DNA of 37,358 bases, taken from Methanothrix sp. (GTDB lineage: Archaea; Halobacteriota; Methanosarcinia; Methanotrichales; Methanotrichaceae). Within the stretch, counting starts at the first letter, position 1; each line of letters starts with the position of its first letter. Of this stretch, positions 17,089 through 29,261 are shown piece after piece. The notes beneath the pieces were generated by a model. The model worked only from the letters and a program-made list of their open reading frames with translations, had not been told where the DNA came from and did no database searches. The position numbers and the translations under genes are program-made. The stretch is taken from the NCBI GenBank assembly GCA_026394475.1, contig JAPKYD010000014.1, positions 1 to 37,358 of the forward strand, given 5' to 3'.

Positions 17089-17331
17089 TTGGTAATTGGA
17101 TTAACAATGATCAAGGTTAGACCCGGTCAGGAAAGATCGGCTTATGCCGACCTGCAGAAAAGGCCGGAGGTGAGAGACGTCTATCGCCTCTTTGGAGAGT
17201 ACACCTTCTTCCTGGTTATGCAGGCCGAAGGCAGAAATAGGTTCCAGCAGATCCTGAAGGGCATCAAAGAAGAGAACGAGGTCCTCAAGACCGGCCCCGT
17301 CCTGCTAGAATCTGCCCTTACCTTCGGCTGA
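17089..17331 (+). CDS. Stand-alone Lrp/AsnC ligand-binding (RAM) domain protein
   Basis: About 80 residues consisting only of the beta-alpha-beta-beta-alpha-beta RAM domain of Lrp/AsnC regulators (VIGLTMIKVRPGQE, then VRDVYRLFGEYTFFLVMQAEG). No DNA-binding helix-turn-helix is present. Such solo domains form dimers or octamers that bind amino acids and may modulate full-length Lrp proteins. I chose the TTG at 17089 over 17065 because GGGGGA lies just upstream and the product then begins like other family members. A T-run follows the gene at 17346-17353. Confidence 0.78.
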   Translation: MVIGLTMIKVRPGQERSAYADLQKRPEVRDVYRLFGEYTFFLVMQAEGRNRFQQILKGIKEENEVLKTGPVLLESALTFG

Positions 17332-21724: not shown

Positions 21725-22630
21725 ATGGACGCATTTGGCATGGGGCTCGTAGCTGCTATGGGCGCTCTGGCCACGGTTGCGGGTGCTTCTGAGGATATTG
21801 ATTCAGATATAGGTTCTCAGAGCAATCCCAACTCGCAGGTTCAGCTGGCTGCCCAGGTCGGAAATCCCCACAGGATTTACAACAAGGCCATCGCAGGCGA
21901 GCCGCCATCGAACGCTCTGTGGTGTACAACCGCAGCCATCATGGCTTATGTGCTCATCGAAGGCTATCATATGCCTTTGCTGTTTGCAGTAGCCGCTGGG
22001 GCATCCCTGGCAGCTCTCTTCGACGGAGTGATGTCGACGAGCGCCTACTTTGGAAGATCCGCCAGCCAGGCCAGGTTCAACCAGTGGATCTACCTAGACA
22101 TCGTGCGGTACACAACGCCTTCGATTATGGCGCATGTGTGGATAACATCGTTCTGTATTTGTTTGATTGCGGTAATACAGGTTTACATTCTGACGCCTCA
22201 CCATCCCTTCCCGATTCCCGTAATTGGCCTGGTTTGGGGACTAACCGTCGGAGCTATCGGGTCGTCCGTAGGTGACATCCACTACGGTGGTGAGCGTGAG
22301 TTCCAGTGGAGGCTGTTCGGACAGGGCCTCAACACCATGCTCTCCGGACAGATCGTGAGGAAGGCCGAGGCAGGTCTTCGTAACTCCATAGACAATGCCT
22401 GGTTCTGCGCCAAGTTCGGCGGTCCGTGCACAGGATTGGCCTTCGGCCTGACCGTTTTCCTGGATAACTGGAGAACAACTGTCTTTGACCCCGTCACCCA
22501 GGCTGGCGCTGCCATTGCCATGGGCTTGTTCTTTGTAATTGTGATGAACCTGTACAACCACTACTGTGAGGTCTCTGCAAGGAGAAAGTACGGGCCGTAT
22601 CCAGGATACAAGGGGGACATACCCGCATGA
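21725..22630 (+). CDS. mtrE: Methyl-H4MPT:coenzyme M methyltransferase subunit E
   Basis: 301 residues with about six membrane helices; one of the three large integral subunits. The N-terminal half has the family's SDIGSQSNPNSQVQLAAQ stretch and IYNKAISGEPP-like text (IYNKAIAGEPPSNALW). A cytoplasmic loop contains GDIHYGGEREFQWRLFG. With MtrC and MtrD it forms the sodium channel part of the complex that couples methyl transfer from H4MPT to coenzyme M with Na+ export. It is first in the operon; its stop overlaps the mtrD ATG (ATGA). Confidence 0.97.
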   Translation: MDAFGMGLVAAMGALATVAGASEDIDSDIGSQSNPNSQVQLAAQVGNPHRIYNKAIAGEPPSNALWCTTAAIMAYVLIEGYHMPLLFAVAAGASLAALFDGVMSTSAYFGRSASQARFNQWIYLDIVRYTTPSIMAHVWITSFCICLIAVIQVYILTPHHPFPIPVIGLVWGLTVGAIGSSVGDIHYGGEREFQWRLFGQGLNTMLSGQIVRKAEAGLRNSIDNAWFCAKFGGPCTGLAFGLTVFLDNWRTTVFDPVTQAGAAIAMGLFFVIVMNLYNHYCEVSARRKYGPYPGYKGDIPA

Positions 22631-23322
22631 CCTTTGATATTAATACCATTATATACATTCTTGAGATCATCGTGGGAGGCCTACTCGTAGGTGTTGGCGT
22701 TCACTTCGTGCCCGTGGGTGGCGCCCCCGCAGCCATGGCCCAGGCCACAGGTATCGGTACAGGCACAGTGCAGCTGGCTGCAGGTTCAGGACTCACCGGT
22801 CTTCTGTCCGCTGGCCTGATGATGTCCGTCACCGATAATCTCTGGGCAATCTTAGCGACGGGTGCAGTTGGCGCCATGATCATGATTGACGCCACCATGC
22901 TGGCGGGCAGCTGGATTTACGCCTACGCCGTAGGTGCACCCTTTGCTTCGGCCAAGGTCAATTACGACCCAATTACTGGCTTCTCCCAGCCGCCTTATGT
23001 CGCACCAGGCACGGTCGGGCAGGGTATCCCCACCGTCTGCTTTGTTTCCGGTACGATCGGAGCAGCTATGGGGGGCCTCGGAGGGGCGATGATTTATTAT
23101 CCGCTGGTGCAGATCAACGGCAACCCGGCCATGAGCGCCATCTTCGCCATAGGCATATTCTTTGTGGACGCCGTGCTGGCTTCCTGGAACATCCAGGGAA
23201 CCATCGAAGGGTTCCACGATCCCAAGTTCAAGAAGTGGCCCAATGCCTTCAAATCGTGCCTGGTAGCAACTGCTATCTTGGCCGTTGTGGCCGTGCTCAT
23301 TACGCCCATTGGAGGAGTCTGA
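22627..23322 (+). CDS. mtrD: Methyl-H4MPT:coenzyme M methyltransferase subunit D
   Basis: 231 residues, about six helices. Typical glycine-rich text is VGVHFVPVGGAPAAMAQATGIGTGTVQLAAG near residues 21-51 and DNLWAILATGAVGAMIMID near 71-90. It is an integral subunit of the Mtr sodium pump. It overlaps mtrE by four bases, and its stop is one base from the mtrC ATG. Confidence 0.97.
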   Translation: MTFDINTIIYILEIIVGGLLVGVGVHFVPVGGAPAAMAQATGIGTGTVQLAAGSGLTGLLSAGLMMSVTDNLWAILATGAVGAMIMIDATMLAGSWIYAYAVGAPFASAKVNYDPITGFSQPPYVAPGTVGQGIPTVCFVSGTIGAAMGGLGGAMIYYPLVQINGNPAMSAIFAIGIFFVDAVLASWNIQGTIEGFHDPKFKKWPNAFKSCLVATAILAVVAVLITPIGGV

Positions 23323-23323
23323 G

Positions 23324-24145
23324 ATGGCAGAGAAAACCGTAGTCAAGGGGTTCAAGATCGAGCCCAAGCAGCTCAGGATCTACGGGCTGGTTGGGTCCGT
23401 GGTGGGAATCTACCTGGCATACATCCTGAACAGCGTCACAGGAACGAATATATTCTCCTTCGTAGGAGCCCTGGCAGCACTCTTCGGAGTGGTCATGGGT
23501 GCTAACGCTGTTCGACGCGTCTGCGCTTACGGTATAGGCACAGGAGTTCCCTCTATCGGAATGCTTTCCCTGGGAATGGGCACAGTGGCAGTCCTGTTCG
23601 GCCTCAACATTGCCGAGCAGTTGGGCGTGGGATTGCTGGGTGTGATCTTAGCTCTGGTTTACTCACTGATCTTCGGCTATGTCGTGGGGCTTATTGCCAA
23701 CAGGGTCATGGGCTTCAACATTCCCATCATGGAGGAAGGCTTGACTGACCTGTCCGGCGCAGGAACCTTGGCCATTTTGGGCTGGTGTTTTGCCATCTCC
23801 GGATCTCTGGCTTATGCCGATATCGTGAAGGACGTCTTCAATACAGGCTTCCTGGCCATCATCTTCATCTGCGGCGGTCTGGCTATCCTGCATCCCTTCA
23901 ACGCCAACCTCGGCCCGGATGAGAAGCAGGACAGGACCCTGGTGAACGGCGTGATGGTGGGAGGAATGTCCACTATAGCCACGGGCATATGTGCCCTGAT
24001 GACACTGGGACTGGCCGCAGGAATGGTGCAGATTGTGGTGGGCTTTGCCATCTGGTACTACTTCTACGTCTGGTACTTCAGGCTGGCAAAGAGAGATGCA
24101 TCAGCAGTGGTCGGAACAGGGCTTCTGCCGCCGAGCGCGCTCTAA
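23324..24145 (+). CDS. mtrC: Methyl-H4MPT:coenzyme M methyltransferase subunit C
   Basis: 273 residues, about seven to eight membrane helices, third of the large integral subunits. I use the ATG at 23324 (MAEKTVVKGFKIEPKQLRI), which follows the mtrD stop by one base; the frame is open further back to 23285 but that part would lie inside mtrD. Family text includes GANAVRRVCAYGIGTGVPSIG and NANLGPDEKQDRTL. mtrB follows after 14 bases with GGAGG. Confidence 0.97.
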   Translation: MAEKTVVKGFKIEPKQLRIYGLVGSVVGIYLAYILNSVTGTNIFSFVGALAALFGVVMGANAVRRVCAYGIGTGVPSIGMLSLGMGTVAVLFGLNIAEQLGVGLLGVILALVYSLIFGYVVGLIANRVMGFNIPIMEEGLTDLSGAGTLAILGWCFAISGSLAYADIVKDVFNTGFLAIIFICGGLAILHPFNANLGPDEKQDRTLVNGVMVGGMSTIATGICALMTLGLAAGMVQIVVGFAIWYYFYVWYFRLAKRDASAVVGTGLLPPSAL

Positions 24146-24159
24146 AGGAGGTCTTGTAA

Positions 24160-24522
24160 ATGGGAGTTGTAAGAATATCACCCGAACTGGGTCTGCTATT
24201 CGATCCTATCAAGGGAACGGTCGCAGAGCAAAGGGAAGACGTTGTTCAGTATGCTCTGGACCCACTCTATCCCAAGGTGGAGAAGCTCGACAATATAGCG
24301 GACGATCTGATGAACCAGCTGGTGCCGGACAACGAGCTCATGGAGTCCTACGCCAACAGGGGCAAGGCATCCTACATAGGCGGCCTGTACACCAACATCT
24401 GGATGGGCTTCATCATCGGCCTGGTAGTGGCCTTCGTCATCCTCGTCAGCACGCTGTTCACCAGCCCGGCTGGAATGGAAATAGTAAAGACGGCTTTGAA
24501 GCCGGCAACTGGAGGTGCCTGA
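24160..24522 (+). CDS. mtrB: Methyl-H4MPT:coenzyme M methyltransferase subunit B
   Basis: 120 residues: a cytoplasmic N-terminal part (VRISPELGLLFDPIKGTVAEQ) and one membrane helix near 85-103 (MGFIIGLVVAFVILVSTLF). Single-helix subunits such as MtrB surround the MtrCDE core. The ribosome binding site is AAAGGAGG. The stop is one base from the mtrA ATG. Confidence 0.95.
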   Translation: MGVVRISPELGLLFDPIKGTVAEQREDVVQYALDPLYPKVEKLDNIADDLMNQLVPDNELMESYANRGKASYIGGLYTNIWMGFIIGLVVAFVILVSTLFTSPAGMEIVKTALKPATGGA

Positions 24523-24523
24523 G

Positions 24524-25255
24524 ATGGCCCTGAAGAAGAAGCCTACCGAGCCGTGGCCGCTCATCACCGGCGAGTACTATGCAGGGAACCCGGAAAACCC
24601 TGTAGCTGTCTGTACCTGCGGATCTCACATCAAACCTGAGACGCTACTTGAGGCTGGAGCAGCTCTGACAGGACCCTGCAAGACGGAGAACATCGGCATA
24701 GAGAAGATGGTGGCCAACATGGTCTCCAATCCCAACATCAGGTTCCTGATCATAACGGGAATGGAGGTCAAGGGGCACATCACCGGCCAGGCTGCCGACT
24801 CCTTCCTCAAGAGCGGCATCGACAAAGAGGGAAGAATCATCGGAGCCAAGGGAGCCATCCCCTTCATCCAAAACCTAACAGAGGAATCTATTGAGCGTAT
24901 CCGGGCCCAGGTGGAGTCGGTCTTCATGATCGATACCGAGGACGTTGGAGCGATAACCGGCAAGATCAGAGAGCTGGTTTCCAAAGATCCAGGAGCCCTG
25001 GACGTCGATCCCATGAGGATCGAGATCAAAGTGGGTGGAGAAGAGGAAGAGGAACATGGACCGAGGGCGCTGGCTGCCGAGGTAGTTGAGGTCAGAGACA
25101 GGATGCGCCTGATGGACGCCGCTGTAACCAACAACGGTCTCCTCAACAAATTCCAGGCAGGCATCTATGCAGGCAAAATGGAGGGCATTGCCCTGGGCAT
25201 GACCATGATTCTGATCTTCTTCGGCATAATCCTGAAGATGGTAGGAGGGCACTAA
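24524..25255 (+). CDS. mtrA: Methyl-H4MPT:coenzyme M methyltransferase subunit A (corrinoid)
   Basis: 243 residues. The soluble cobamide-binding domain starts with PWPLITGEYYAGNPENPVAVCTCGSH and has GMEVKGHITGQ, whose H85 matches the histidine that ligates cobalt (His84 in studied MtrA). A C-terminal helix (GMTMILIFFGIILKMV) anchors it. It accepts the methyl group via MtrH and passes it to coenzyme M. I use the ATG at 24524 because GGAGGTG lies six bases upstream; the GTG at 24515 is part of that ribosome binding site. Confidence 0.97.
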   Translation: MALKKKPTEPWPLITGEYYAGNPENPVAVCTCGSHIKPETLLEAGAALTGPCKTENIGIEKMVANMVSNPNIRFLIITGMEVKGHITGQAADSFLKSGIDKEGRIIGAKGAIPFIQNLTEESIERIRAQVESVFMIDTEDVGAITGKIRELVSKDPGALDVDPMRIEIKVGGEEEEEHGPRALAAEVVEVRDRMRLMDAAVTNNGLLNKFQAGIYAGKMEGIALGMTMILIFFGIILKMVGGH

Positions 25256-25256
25256 G

Positions 25257-25493
25257 ATGGCAGAGGAACAAGAGATTGTATACGGCCAGGGAATTCCAAA
25301 CGTCGTTGAGCCCCAGATGGGAATGTTCGACGACCTGGTCGATGACATCAAATACAAGGGTCAGCTCCTGGCCAGGGAGACGAAGCTGAGCTCGGGTGTT
25401 CTCGCCACCGTTTCCATGGGATTCGCTATCGGGTTCATCCTAGCAGTCGTGATGATGATCGGGCCGTTCTTTGTTTTCAAAGGGGGGCTGTGA
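25257..25493 (+). CDS. mtrF: Methyl-H4MPT:coenzyme M methyltransferase subunit F
   Basis: 78 residues: a short cytoplasmic segment and one C-terminal membrane helix (VLATVSMGFAIGFILAVVMMIGPFFVF). MtrF resembles the tail region of MtrA/MtrB and is an accessory subunit. It begins one base after the mtrA stop, with GGAGGG upstream. Confidence 0.92.
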   Translation: MAEEQEIVYGQGIPNVVEPQMGMFDDLVDDIKYKGQLLARETKLSSGVLATVSMGFAIGFILAVVMMIGPFFVFKGGL

Positions 25494-25495
25494 CC

Positions 25496-25741
25496 ATGGC
25501 TGATGAAGGAAAGCAGATAATACCCGTTGGCGTCGTCGATCCAGATCAGTTCGCTCAGATCATGGCGAGGCTGGATAAGATCGATGAGAAGATAGAGTTC
25601 TACTCAGGCGAGAAGTTCCTGCGGGCAGGAAAGTCTGTCGGCAGAGATCTCGGCACGGCCTACGGGCTTTGCGCAGGACTGATCATAATATTGGCGTATA
25701 TACTGTTTGTATATGCCGGCCACTGGACGAGGGTGATTTGA
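25496..25741 (+). CDS. mtrG: Methyl-H4MPT:coenzyme M methyltransferase subunit G
   Basis: About 81 residues. The N-terminal half is a charged helix (FAQIMARLDKIDEKIEF) and the C-terminal half is one membrane helix (GLCAGLIIILAYILFVYAG). I use the ATG at 25496, after a G-rich ribosome binding site inside mtrF; a GTG at 25490 is the alternative. mtrH starts immediately after its stop (TGAATG). Confidence 0.93.
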   Translation: MADEGKQIIPVGVVDPDQFAQIMARLDKIDEKIEFYSGEKFLRAGKSVGRDLGTAYGLCAGLIIILAYILFVYAGHWTRVI

Positions 25742-26677
25742 ATGTTCAAGTTTGATAGGAAGCAAGAGGTCTTCGAGTTCGGCAAGTTCAAGGTTGGGGG
25801 CCAGCCTGGAGAGTACCCCACATGTTGCATTGGCACCATGTTCTACGCCAGGCACAAGATCGTCTCGGATGCGGAGCACGGAGTCTTCGACACGGCTGCG
25901 GCCGAGAAGCTCTGGAACGCACAGGTTGAGATGAGCGACATCACTGGCAACTCCTGTATGAACCAGATCGTCGCGGAGAGCAATGAGGCCATGAAGAAGG
26001 AGATCGACTGGTTCGTAGGGCTATCCGATTACCCGTTCCTCATCGACTCCAGCGCACCAGAGGTTCGCGCCTTCGGCGTCAAGTACGCCACCGAGATCGG
26101 CGTGGCAGACAGGGCCATCCACAACTCCATCAACGCCTCTATCACTCCCGAAGAGCTGCAGGCGGTCAAGGATAGCGACCTCGACGCAGCCATCATCCTG
26201 GCCTTCAACGCCATGGAGGCAGGAACCGTAGGCAAGATGAACATCTTGACCAAGGCAGGGGGCGGTGCCAAGAAGGGCATGCTGGAGTACGCCAAGGAGT
26301 GCGGCATAACCAGGACACTCATCGATACGGCCGCCATGCCTTTAGGCAGCGGCTCGGGAGCTACCTATCGTGCCATCATTGCCGTCAAGGCCCAGCTAGG
26401 CCTGCCAGTGGGCGGAGGGTTCCATAACGGCGCGTCGGCATGGGACTGGATGAAAAAGTGGAAGAAACAGCACAAAGAGGCCTTCGCTCCCGTGGATATC
26501 GGCTCCAACCTGGTGGCAGGCATCGTGGGCGCTGACTACTATCTCTACGGTCCGATGGAGAACGCTCCCATGATCTTCCCCGCCGCCGCGATGGTGGACA
26601 TCATGAAGGCAGAGGCGGCAGAAGAGCTGGGGCTGCAGGTCCTGACCGACGATCACCCCAGGAAGAAGACGCTTTAA
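25742..26677 (+). CDS. mtrH: Methyl-H4MPT:coenzyme M methyltransferase subunit H
   Basis: 311 residues, soluble TIM-barrel methyltransferase. It starts MFKFDRKQEVFEFGKFKVGG and contains GEYPTCCIGTMFYARHKIV, DSSAPEVRAFGVKYATEIG and the C-terminal barrel text GLPVGGGFHNGASAWDW. It transfers the methyl group from methyl-tetrahydromethanopterin (or sarcinapterin) to the corrinoid on MtrA. Last gene of the operon, followed by a hairpin terminator. The order EDCBAFGH is the standard one. Confidence 0.97.
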   Translation: MFKFDRKQEVFEFGKFKVGGQPGEYPTCCIGTMFYARHKIVSDAEHGVFDTAAAEKLWNAQVEMSDITGNSCMNQIVAESNEAMKKEIDWFVGLSDYPFLIDSSAPEVRAFGVKYATEIGVADRAIHNSINASITPEELQAVKDSDLDAAIILAFNAMEAGTVGKMNILTKAGGGAKKGMLEYAKECGITRTLIDTAAMPLGSGSGATYRAIIAVKAQLGLPVGGGFHNGASAWDWMKKWKKQHKEAFAPVDIGSNLVAGIVGADYYLYGPMENAPMIFPAAAMVDIMKAEAAEELGLQVLTDDHPRKKTL

Positions 26678-26717: not shown

Positions 26718-27362
26718 TTGCCTAGGGTTTTTATCAAAACCACCTTTGGAGCTATCCGATTCAAATGCCAGAGATGCGGCTCCTGCTGCCACCATAAGAG
26801 GCCTCCTGAGTTCGAGGATCTGGTCCCCCTGGAACGACTGAAAGAGTTCTGCGCGAAATCGAACTTGATCTGCCTGACAAAGGAAGACATCGAGAATATC
26901 AGCCACCAGACGAGGCAGAAGCCCCGCGATTTCGTAGATACCCTCTTCGAGTACGATGGACAATGCGTCCGCGTCCGTGATTTTGGAGAGAAGATAATCC
27001 TAGATTTCCCGGTGATGAAGAGCAAGGAGGATACCACCTGCGTCTTCTACGATGATGGCTGCACCATTTATTCCGTGCGGCCCAGGGCCTGCCGGCTCTT
27101 TCCCTTTCGCGCGGAGGAAGAGACTGTGCCTCAGGAAGACATTCTGCTCAATATAAGCTACAACCCCACCTGCCCTGGGATAGGGGAAGGCAGAAGTGTG
27201 GATTCTAAGGAGCTGAAGAAGCTGGTCACCGATCAGTTCATGCAGAGAAGTGAGGAGATCGCGCTTGAGTTGCAAAGGCTTGCATCGGCGGGCAAGATTC
27301 AGAAGGATGCGAGGATTTATAGGACTCTGCCGGGCCGCAGATCCTGCAGCATTAAGGACTGA
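26718..27362 (+). CDS. YkgJ-family cysteine-cluster protein
   Basis: 214 residues. The N-terminal cluster is FKCQRCGSCCHHKRPPEF (C17, C20, C23, C24), and further cysteines lie in CVFYDDGCTIYSVRPRACRLFPF and PTCPGIGEG, the pattern of the YkgJ/Fli-B-like CxxCxxCC family thought to hold zinc or an iron-sulfur cluster. Biochemical role unknown. The start is TTG at 26718 with GAGG seven bases upstream. It follows the mtr terminator directly, so it is probably transcribed at low level by read-through or from a weak promoter. Confidence 0.85.
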   Translation: MPRVFIKTTFGAIRFKCQRCGSCCHHKRPPEFEDLVPLERLKEFCAKSNLICLTKEDIENISHQTRQKPRDFVDTLFEYDGQCVRVRDFGEKIILDFPVMKSKEDTTCVFYDDGCTIYSVRPRACRLFPFRAEEETVPQEDILLNISYNPTCPGIGEGRSVDSKELKKLVTDQFMQRSEEIALELQRLASAGKIQKDARIYRTLPGRRSCSIKD

Positions 27363-27470
27363 CTCAGTGTCGAGATGCGCCTGAGGTCTGGTAAAGTTTT
27401 TCTCCTATAGTGATGTAACCAGTTTGGGGCATGGGTTATCCCCGCGCCCTAAAATTGGAGGTGAGCCAAA

Positions 27471-27647
27471 ATGACAGTTGTAAAGAGCGATGCAATGCTG
27501 CAGCACGAGAAGTGGATAGCCGAGGTGGTCGCACATAGACCGAAACGTACCAACGACCAGGTAATGCATATCGAGTGGAGCAGATACTTGATTGTCGCAG
27601 CCGCTGTCCTAGTAGTAGTTATTGCTGCTTTATCTATGATGAAGTAG
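27471..27647 (+). CDS. Small membrane protein, 58 residues, downstream of mtr
   Basis: The ATG at 27471 has a full-consensus GGAGGTGA six bases upstream. The product starts with a charged amphipathic part (LQHEKWIAEVVAHRPKRT) and ends with one membrane helix (YLIVAAAVLVVVIAALSMMK). A perfect hairpin follows the stop. The strong ribosome binding site, own terminator and location suggest a well-expressed protein. I do not recognise it; a small accessory subunit of a membrane complex such as Mtr is one possibility, purely by position and shape. Confidence 0.75.
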   Translation: MTVVKSDAMLQHEKWIAEVVAHRPKRTNDQVMHIEWSRYLIVAAAVLVVVIAALSMMK

Positions 27648-27652
27648 GAGAA

Positions 27653-27675
27653 AAGGCCGGGCATCCGGCCTTCAT
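27653..27675 (+). terminator. Hairpin terminator after the 58-residue gene
   Basis: AAGGCCGG and CCGGCCTT form an eight-base perfect stem around GCAT, six bases after the stop codon, followed by a modest T-rich stretch. Confidence 0.6.
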
Positions 27676-27887
27676 TCCTGACTTCTGATGACAGCTTTTT
27701 CTAAGGGCAATCCTCGGAGGCCTAAATAATGCCGCTTTCTATAATCATTAATAATTAACTTATTGCAACAAAATTTTTTCTGAAGTCTGCAGTTTTTAGA
27801 TAAAAGGATGGCACAAAGTTTAAGTTAAGGGCAGTAGTTGAAGAGTTCTGTTCGCGTATCCACTGCCTAGAGAGGAGGTGAAAATAG

Positions 27888-27998
27888 ATGCCCAACATCA
27901 CGGATCAGCTGATCGCAATAGTCGTATTCGGCATTTGCACATTTGTACTGCCCTATGCATTCAACAAGTGGTCTGACAGCAGAGCAGGTGTAAGGTAA
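27888..27998 (+). CDS. Very small membrane protein, 36 residues
   Basis: The ATG at 27888 has AGGAGGTGA six bases upstream, the best ribosome binding site in the window. The product has one membrane helix (LIAIVVFGICTFVLPYAF) and a short basic tail NKWSDSRAGVR. A perfect hairpin follows 14 bases after the stop, making a self-contained transcription unit preceded by an AT-rich promoter region with TTTAAGTTAA near 27819. No family recognised. It resembles the single-helix accessory subunits of energy-converting membrane complexes. Confidence 0.7.
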   Translation: MPNITDQLIAIVVFGICTFVLPYAFNKWSDSRAGVR

Positions 27999-28012: not shown

Positions 28013-28034
28013 GATCCTGGTTCCCGCCAGGATC
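28013..28034 (+). terminator. Hairpin terminator after the 36-residue gene
   Basis: GATCCTGG pairs perfectly with CCAGGATC around TTCCCG, followed by an AT-rich stretch. It also faces the end of the minus-strand gene at 28045 and may serve both. Confidence 0.6.
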
Positions 28035-28044
28035 ATCATTACTA

Positions 28045-28302
28045 TTATCTCATTTTGCATCTCTTGCTGTAATGAGGGCACTTGGTATTGGTGCAGACGT
28101 TCTCCTTTGCAGCTTCAGTGAGCCCCATCAGCAGGAAGTCGAGACGGTTTATTATCTCCGCTTCGGCTGATGCCGACTCCGCTAGCTGTAGAGACTGCTC
28201 CGCCCTTCGTCTCAGATCCCTGGCCCTCGTACTCTCTTTGCGAAGAGCTGCAGCTTCGGCCTCCAGCTCCTGCAAAAGCTCCTTCCAGTTCACAGGCTCC
28301 AT
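28045..28302 (-). CDS. Small coiled-coil protein with Cys/His tail, next to marker 12
   Basis: 85 residues. Residues 5-50 are an alanine- and glutamate-rich coiled coil (LLQELEAEAAALRKESTRA, then RRRAEQSLQLAESASAEAE). The end is NVCTNTKCPHYSKRCKMR, a compact cluster of three cysteines and a histidine that could bind zinc or an iron-sulfur cluster. It overlaps the marker 12 gene by 13 bases in another frame, so it is translationally coupled to it. I know no named family; the partner is probably the marker 12 protein. Confidence 0.75.
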   Translation of the reverse strand: MEPVNWKELLQELEAEAAALRKESTRARDLRRRAEQSLQLAESASAEAEIINRLDFLLMGLTEAAKENVCTNTKCPHYSKRCKMR

Positions 28303-29261
28303 GCTTTGCCATCCTTAAACCTGGCAGCCTGGTCCACCTCCAGGCCCAGGATGCTTTCGCAGCCTTTGAACACAGCCGCTGCAATCCAGGCGCAACCTTC
28401 AGCGGCCGCACATCTTCCCAGGGATTTCACATCTCTGCCCAAGAGATCAGCTACGCGCGTCTCGATCAGAGGAGATGGGCTGCCAGCCAGAAAGAGGCGA
28501 GGGTCGGGTTCCCCCCGATCGCGCGAGAGGACGAGCAGGGCGGAGATCTCCATGGCCGCGAATAAGGCAAGAGACTCAAGAGCCAGTCTTCGTTCCTCGG
28601 GAGCACATTCCTCGAGGCCCGACCGCCCCATCTTGCAGAGAATGCCGCCGCAGGTGAAGGCCTGATTGGCGCTCATCTTTCCCGCATCCACCTTTCTTAT
28701 GGCTTCAACATCCAGAGGGCCTTGCATCAATCCAGGCGCGAAGATGGGAGCATCGATGGCCCCGATGATCTCTCCCTTCAGGACGCAGAAGGTCACGGTA
28801 TTGGAGCTGGCATCGGAGACTATGAAGCTGTTTTGGCCTTGCCGGAAGACTCCGTAGGCCAGGCCGACCTTTTCCGGGCTCATGCCGTGGGAGAAGACCT
28901 TCAGCCTGGGATCGACATCGCCTGCGCGGTGTATTCCCGGCAAAAGCACGCAGGGCCAGCCGGAATTCTTTATTGCCTCGAAGACCCTGGTGCCTCCGCC
29001 GACGTGCAGGCCGGCACCATCCTGCTGGATGATGCCCCGGTTCGGGGCGTCCTCCAGGCGCACGATGCGGGTGAGACCGTCGCCCATGGAGTAGGTCAGG
29101 ACCACCAGATCGACATGGGAGAGTCCCAGATTACGCCGAATGCCTGCGAGGATCTCCTCAGAAGAGAGCCGGCTGGCTTCGTGCCTAGGAAGCTCCCAGC
29201 AGCGTCCTGTCTCGACGGCAAAGCGGATAGCTGTGGTCCCGTGATCGATGCCTAAGAACAT
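28290..29261 (-). CDS. Methanogenesis marker protein 12
   Basis: 323 residues of the ASKHA (acetate kinase/sugar kinase/Hsp70) fold. The phosphate-1 motif is FLGIDHGTTAIRFAV at the start; VSDASSNTVTFCVLKGEIIGAIDAP is the second phosphate region, and FLAGSPSPL is near the end. The family occurs in essentially all methanogens and its reaction is unknown. The ATG lies inside the cofD stop region (10-base overlap), tying it to F420 synthesis by expression, and the Cys/His coiled coil follows by overlap. Confidence 0.88.
   Translation of the reverse strand: MFLGIDHGTTAIRFAVETGRCWELPRHEASRLSSEEILAGIRRNLGLSHVDLVVLTYSMGDGLTRIVRLEDAPNRGIIQQDGAGLHVGGGTRVFEAIKNSGWPCVLLPGIHRAGDVDPRLKVFSHGMSPEKVGLAYGVFRQGQNSFIVSDASSNTVTFCVLKGEIIGAIDAPIFAPGLMQGPLDVEAIRKVDAGKMSANQAFTCGGILCKMGRSGLEECAPEERRLALESLALFAAMEISALLVLSRDRGEPDPRLFLAGSPSPLIETRVADLLGRDVKSLGRCAAAEGCAWIAAAVFKGCESILGLEVDQAARFKDGKAWSL

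Follow-up and report, generated by a model that had tools for sequence, protein, structure and literature searches.

What are two very short open reading frames doing downstream of the mtr operon of Methanothrix, an important acetoclastic methane producer, and are they subunits of the methyltransferase complex beside which they are encoded? The window, by which we mean the whole stretch of 37,358 nucleotides analysed, is contig C40 of a 1.92-Mb, 84%-complete genome. It carries a complete mtr operon on the plus strand, with all eight genes in the order EDCBAFGH (21725..26677; orthologues aligned), followed 3' of mtrH by the gene for a CxxCxxCC (YkgJ-like) protein (26718..27362, plus strand; Pfam PF03692), here ykgJ, which is found in 45 of the 50 family genomes. 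Then come, on the same strand, a frame of 58 residues (27471..27647), referred to here as fam1, and one of 36 residues (27888..27998), fam2. The minus strand beyond fam2 holds a gene for an 85-aa protein with the cysteine cluster CTNTKCPHYSKRC at its C-terminus (28045..28302), convergent with fam2, followed by methanogenesis marker 12 (28290..29261; TIGR03281), cofD and a ZPR1 gene; the 85-aa protein is conserved in the family and gave no match in Pfam or NCBIfam. A preliminary description had placed the two frames within 1.4 kb of mtrH and had raised the possibility that they encode overlooked accessory subunits of Mtr or of another energy-converting complex. Both frames are present at these positions, and the distance is right because mtrH ends at 26677.

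Signals flank the two frames on both sides. Each is preceded by the ribosome-binding site GGAGGTGA, six bases before the ATG (27457..27464 for fam1 and 27874..27881 for fam2, plus strand), and the earlier judgement that these are the best such sites on the strand holds, the sole other plus-strand copy lying at 17166 within an ORF. Counting both strands, the window has three instances of GGAGGTGA-N4..8-ATG at the head of an ORF no shorter than 30 aa; the average over 200 dinucleotide-shuffled sequences was 0.07, and 2 of the 200 reached two or more, so that chance is not the explanation for the arrangement of site and frame at fam1 and fam2. The perfect 8-base site recurs in 47 of the 52 fam2 genes examined, paralogues at unrelated loci included, fam1 orthologues keep 6–8 matching bases, and both genes are probably well translated. 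A BRE/TATA-like box stands before fam1 (GGTAAAGTTTTTCTCCTATA, 27390..27409, plus strand), and as GGNAAAGTTTTTCTCCTAAAG sits at near-constant spacing ahead of the ATG in the majority of the 11 orthologues aligned; fam2 is preceded by CAAAGTTTAAGTT (27813..27825, plus strand), with AAAAGGTTTA-like boxes upstream of its orthologues. These boxes are consistent with a separate archaeal promoter for each gene.

Downstream, the perfect eight-base hairpins reported after the two stops were recovered as AAGGCCGG-gcat-CCGGCCTT (27653..27672, plus strand) for fam1 and GATCCTGG-ttcccg-CCAGGATC (28013..28034, plus strand) for fam2. Similar stems follow several fam1 orthologues, with altered sequence in G027. 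Counted by eye, the fam2 stem is retained in about 18 of 25 mtr-locus relatives and 5 of 8 of the mch-type, with the compensatory variants GATCCTGG/CCAGGATC, AGTCCTGG/CCAGGACT and AATCCTGG/CCAGGATT, and most genomes of genus g5 have CGCGGG/CCCGCG in its place. An A+T-rich palindrome upstream of fam2 (ATNATTAATNAT, 27742..27757) is met again in front of many fam2 genes, spread over several loci; ahead of the paralogues it stands at −42 to −58 or roughly −128 to −146 relative to the start, and it is possibly an operator or promoter element. As a regulon marker it was set aside: other copies in six genomes adjoin unrelated genes, the backward-read control is about equally frequent in some genomes, and a regulon was therefore not drawn.

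Purifying selection at the codon level is evident for both frames (dN/dS about 0.1–0.2), the estimate for fam1 being about 0.09 from three unsaturated pairs only and that for fam2 about 0.2 in pairwise comparison. We regard fam1 and fam2 as real conserved genes that represent two new small membrane-protein families, with no relation between them detectable by hhalign. Each protein has one hydrophobic stretch. In fam1, which is predicted to be tail-anchored, a putative cytosolic head (residues 1–36) would precede a transmembrane helix at about 39–57, and AlphaFold places helices at 7–21 and 29–57 with a linker between them. The conserved residues of fam1 lie in the head (D7, M9, Q11, P24 and K25), while the anchor helix shows no one-face conservation (moment p 0.97) and is kept in composition only. 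For fam2, AlphaFold gives a single helix at 4–32 (mean pLDDT 90) leading into the basic C-terminus NKWSDSRAGVR. The residues M1, G15, L21, P22, N26, D30 and R36 are invariant, and the net charge is −1 at the N-terminal and +2 at the C-terminal side, which by the positive-inside rule suggests an N-out/C-in topology. Across 40 related sequences, conservation of the fam2 helix falls on one face (moment p 0.007–0.013, a modest signal), as would be expected of a helix packing against a partner. The models of both proteins are single helices, uninformative on binding, and therefore cannot name that partner.

The start ATG of fam2 is missing in three related genomes (G001, G002 and G018) in which the remaining frame is intact, which implies either initiation at a non-AUG codon or decay. 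At the three loci with ATG-less genes (L006 near 9200, L005 near 2450 and L070 near 9330) GGAGGTG is kept together with the remaining frame, and AUA or AUC, in place as starts, may serve for initiation.

Profile searches of Pfam, NCBIfam and the PDB returned zero significant matches for either family, in line with the earlier reading of both as unannotated, and no PDB chain matched although the copy searched includes the Mtr structures 9QTQ/9QTS and 8Q3V. With hhalign, fam1 against MtrB, MtrF and MtrG and fam2 against MtrF gave probabilities of 0.2–3%. Below significance, fam2 has weak matches to the MetS/MaAIMP_sms models (best E 0.044–0.053) and to the CcoM model. The assignment of fam2 as a MetS or MaAIMP small subunit was rejected, the family score being not significant and the window showing no adjacent NSS transporter; between ykgJ and marker 12 it contains no transporter ORF at all.

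Homologues in related genomes, which the preliminary description had called for, were found in many Methanotrichaceae, and both families are confined to that family: among 295 genomes of the phylum no convincing member appeared outside it, the weak matches there being short pieces, mostly inside longer frames, that were rejected. Fam2 is present in 34 of the 50 family genomes, and in a tree of MtrE, D, C, A, H and YkgJ these genomes form one clade in which every genome of adequate completeness has it; the genus g1 genomes without it (G003, G008 and G009) are 58–77% complete and were left off the tree. Genera beyond the clade lack it: g9 (nine species), g10, g4 and, probably, g6, represented by one 85%-complete genome off the tree. 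All genomes of g9, g10, g4 and g6 have ykgJ, and in the 12 species of g9, g10 and g4 mtr adjoins ykgJ wherever the region could be read, with neither fam1 nor fam2. By this distribution fam2 is best read as having arisen once, in one clade. Fam1 is a younger, expanding, multi-copy tail-anchored family, patchily present in 17 of the 50 genomes with up to six copies each, its mtr-linked form limited to a subclade.

The linkage to mtr that had been proposed stands in part. Fam1 lies directly after mtr-ykgJ in all 11 genomes with an mtr-type fam1, and most members of the fam2 clade have fam2 downstream of mtr-ykgJ, so that both are kept beside mtr in many relatives; but fam2 is apart from mtr in genus g5 (Methanothrix thermoacetophila-like), and paralogues are found elsewhere. 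In the complete g5 genome G130 (1,879,471 bp) mtr-ykgJ is at 1,474 kb and fam2 at 1,539 kb, 65 kb apart. Where the two genes are absent, the 85-aa gene follows ykgJ directly (L248 and L249), and the empty site of genus g10 (L249) reads mtr-ykgJ and then at once the 85-aa gene and marker 12. This site is consistent with one insertion of fam2 in an ancestor, to which a subclade later added fam1. On this view the position of the two genes next to mtr goes back to insertion between ykgJ and the 85-aa gene in an ancestral genome, followed by vertical descent; relatives that inherited the neighbourhood therefore add no independent evidence of function.

The other copies are scattered. Paralogues of fam2 adjoin thrS in nine genomes and in g5 lie near a threonine-synthase-like gene, both names being read from the sequence, and in G001, G002, G012, G020 and G021 fam2 is followed on the same strand by an SSS-type symporter-like gene. 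In five genomes (L195, L197, L198, L201 and L102) a second fam2 copy lies downstream of an mch-like (methenyl-H4MPT cyclohydrolase) gene, with an 84-aa protein between mch and fam2 in three of the loci checked. Fam1 paralogues are found beside a putative M50-like protease gene, near radA, in plasmid-like islands and at other places. Those beside the protease gene lie 18–90 bp upstream of it on the same strand (L083 7440-8297; L189, L190, L191 and L103), an arrangement that suggests an operon. Two further small proteins accompany these loci: a 95-aa one without Pfam match, resembling the 85-aa cysteine-cluster protein, adjoins a fam1 paralogue (G000:C12 (L077) and L087), and a multi-copy 150-aa one with a weak ParD match (PF09386, below cut-off; L003 8218-8676, L181, L182, L183, L188 and L194) often sits close to fam1 paralogues and in the interval from mtr to marker 12, which has the look of an insertion hotspot. 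A toxin-antitoxin pair of fam1 with the ParD-like c11 protein is not supported, since their orientation and distance vary.

Which membrane partner, then, might the two proteins serve? Mtr is one candidate among several. One or both could be clade-specific accessory or regulatory subunits, sitting on MtrCDE or on the MtrABFG stalk as MtrI-like additions, and such a role would suit the position of fam1 after mtr-ykgJ in 11 of 11 cases and of fam2 downstream of it in most of the clade, the MtrF/G-like layout of fam1, the fam2 paralogue beside the mch-like gene of the H4MPT pathway in five genomes, and the small-protein precedent of MtrI in Methanosarcina (PMC12774963). However, insertion and descent account for the neighbourhood, many relatives have mtr and neither gene, fam2 is away from mtr in g5 with paralogues at non-mtr loci such as thrS, both genes look separately transcribed from promoter-like boxes of their own, and no homology was seen to the Mtr subunits compared. 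We therefore judge an accessory Mtr role unlikely, and slightly less likely still the proposal that Methanothrix has in fam2, and perhaps in fam1 too, an additional lineage-specific subunit of Mtr or of a partner complex; if it were true, the energy-conserving methyltransferase of these acetoclastic methanogens would have a composition unlike that in the published Mtr structures. As core subunits (MtrA-H) the two proteins were rejected, there being no homology in the comparisons made and both genes being missing where mtr is present (g9, g10 and g4). The earlier suggestion of a role as Mtr subunits is not supported, with eight mtr genes already present in the window and 12 species carrying mtr without either gene, and the comparison it proposed with any extra small subunit in Mtr structures showed neither PDB similarity nor MtrI features.

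That the proteins are small subunits of nearby transporters or membrane proteases, fam2 serving a sodium:solute symporter and fam1 the M50-like protease, is distinctly improbable: the same-strand symporter-like gene after fam2 and the close spacing of fam1 paralogues upstream of the protease gene, each in five genomes, would agree with it, as would the weak MaAIMP_sms/MetS matches of fam2, but the symporter is not beside fam2 in most genomes, the window included, those matches are weak (E 0.04–0.05), other fam1 paralogues have different neighbours, and the names of symporter and protease were themselves read from the sequence. A different kind of alternative would make the loci chiefly regulatory RNAs, or dual-function RNAs whose frames are secondary, given that they are short, have promoter-like boxes of their own and keep 3' stems through compensatory changes; selection on the codons points to the protein instead, stems are missing in some relatives where the protein stays, and we hold this very improbable. 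Hydrophobic toxins of the type I toxin-antitoxin kind, with the layout of Fst/Ldr, are likewise short single-helix peptides that end in charged residues and come in several copies. Yet fam2 is held at one locus through the whole clade with a strong ribosome-binding site and under purifying selection, conservation in fam1 lies in the hydrophilic head, no Fst/Ldr match was obtained in NCBIfam or Pfam and no antisense gene was identified, which makes toxins extremely improbable.

We favour, with moderate confidence, the reading that fam1 and fam2 are two separate, independently transcribed genes for unrelated, lineage-specific single-pass accessory proteins of membrane partners. Fam2, the clade-core gene, most probably encodes a small subunit that stabilises or regulates a membrane complex. 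It would be strongly translated as a single-pass helix with its N-terminus out and its basic tail in the cytosol, packing through the face of A10, F14, G15, L21, P22 and N26 onto an integral membrane protein larger than itself, in an accessory or stabilising role. In fam1 the conserved cytosolic head would make the contact, the helix acting merely as an anchor. Although its clade of methanogens carries it as a core gene and its expression signals are unusually well preserved, fam2 has no entry in Pfam, NCBIfam or the PDB, and we found no study of small proteins in Methanothrix in the literature.

Comparison with known systems places the two families beside several kinds of small protein. The earlier likening of both to the small Mtr subunits is correct in that each has one hydrophobic stretch; a cytosolic head with a single C-terminal helix is common to MtrF/MtrG and, on the predicted topology, fam1 only, the predicted N-out/C-in orientation of fam2 being the opposite, and MtrF and MtrG show no sequence relation to fam1 and each have their own gene in the window. 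The small subunits of transporters and oxidases of the MetS, KdpF, CydX and CcoM kind share with fam2 a single helix in 30–40 aa, although the matches (MetS/MaAIMP_sms and CcoM) are weak and no cognate complex adjoins in the window. The unannotated small ORFs known from Ribo-seq in Methanosarcina mazei (PMC11456600) belong to the same overlooked kind, in an organism whose family differs from that of the fam1 and fam2 hosts. In the same species MtrI (MM_2401) is a soluble protein of 68 aa and four helices with a four-Cys N-terminal zinc ribbon, whose Cys40 ligates the corrinoid cobalt, and it is reported from Methanosarcinaceae, Methanoperedenaceae and Methanocomedenaceae only (PMC12774963). 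An identification with MtrI was rejected, both proteins having a predicted transmembrane helix and lacking the zinc ribbon and the corrinoid-ligating Cys (Cys is absent from the fam1 sequence of the window, and the one Cys of fam2, within the helix, is not conserved). The likeness lies in small size, lack of annotation, a distribution limited to part of the Methanosarcinales and a stand-alone gene outside the mtr operon. MtrI demonstrates that partners of energy-converting complexes have gone unnoticed among small proteins of this kind, and a conserved family with a clade-wide distribution and an empty site offers a defined target for work on purified complexes.
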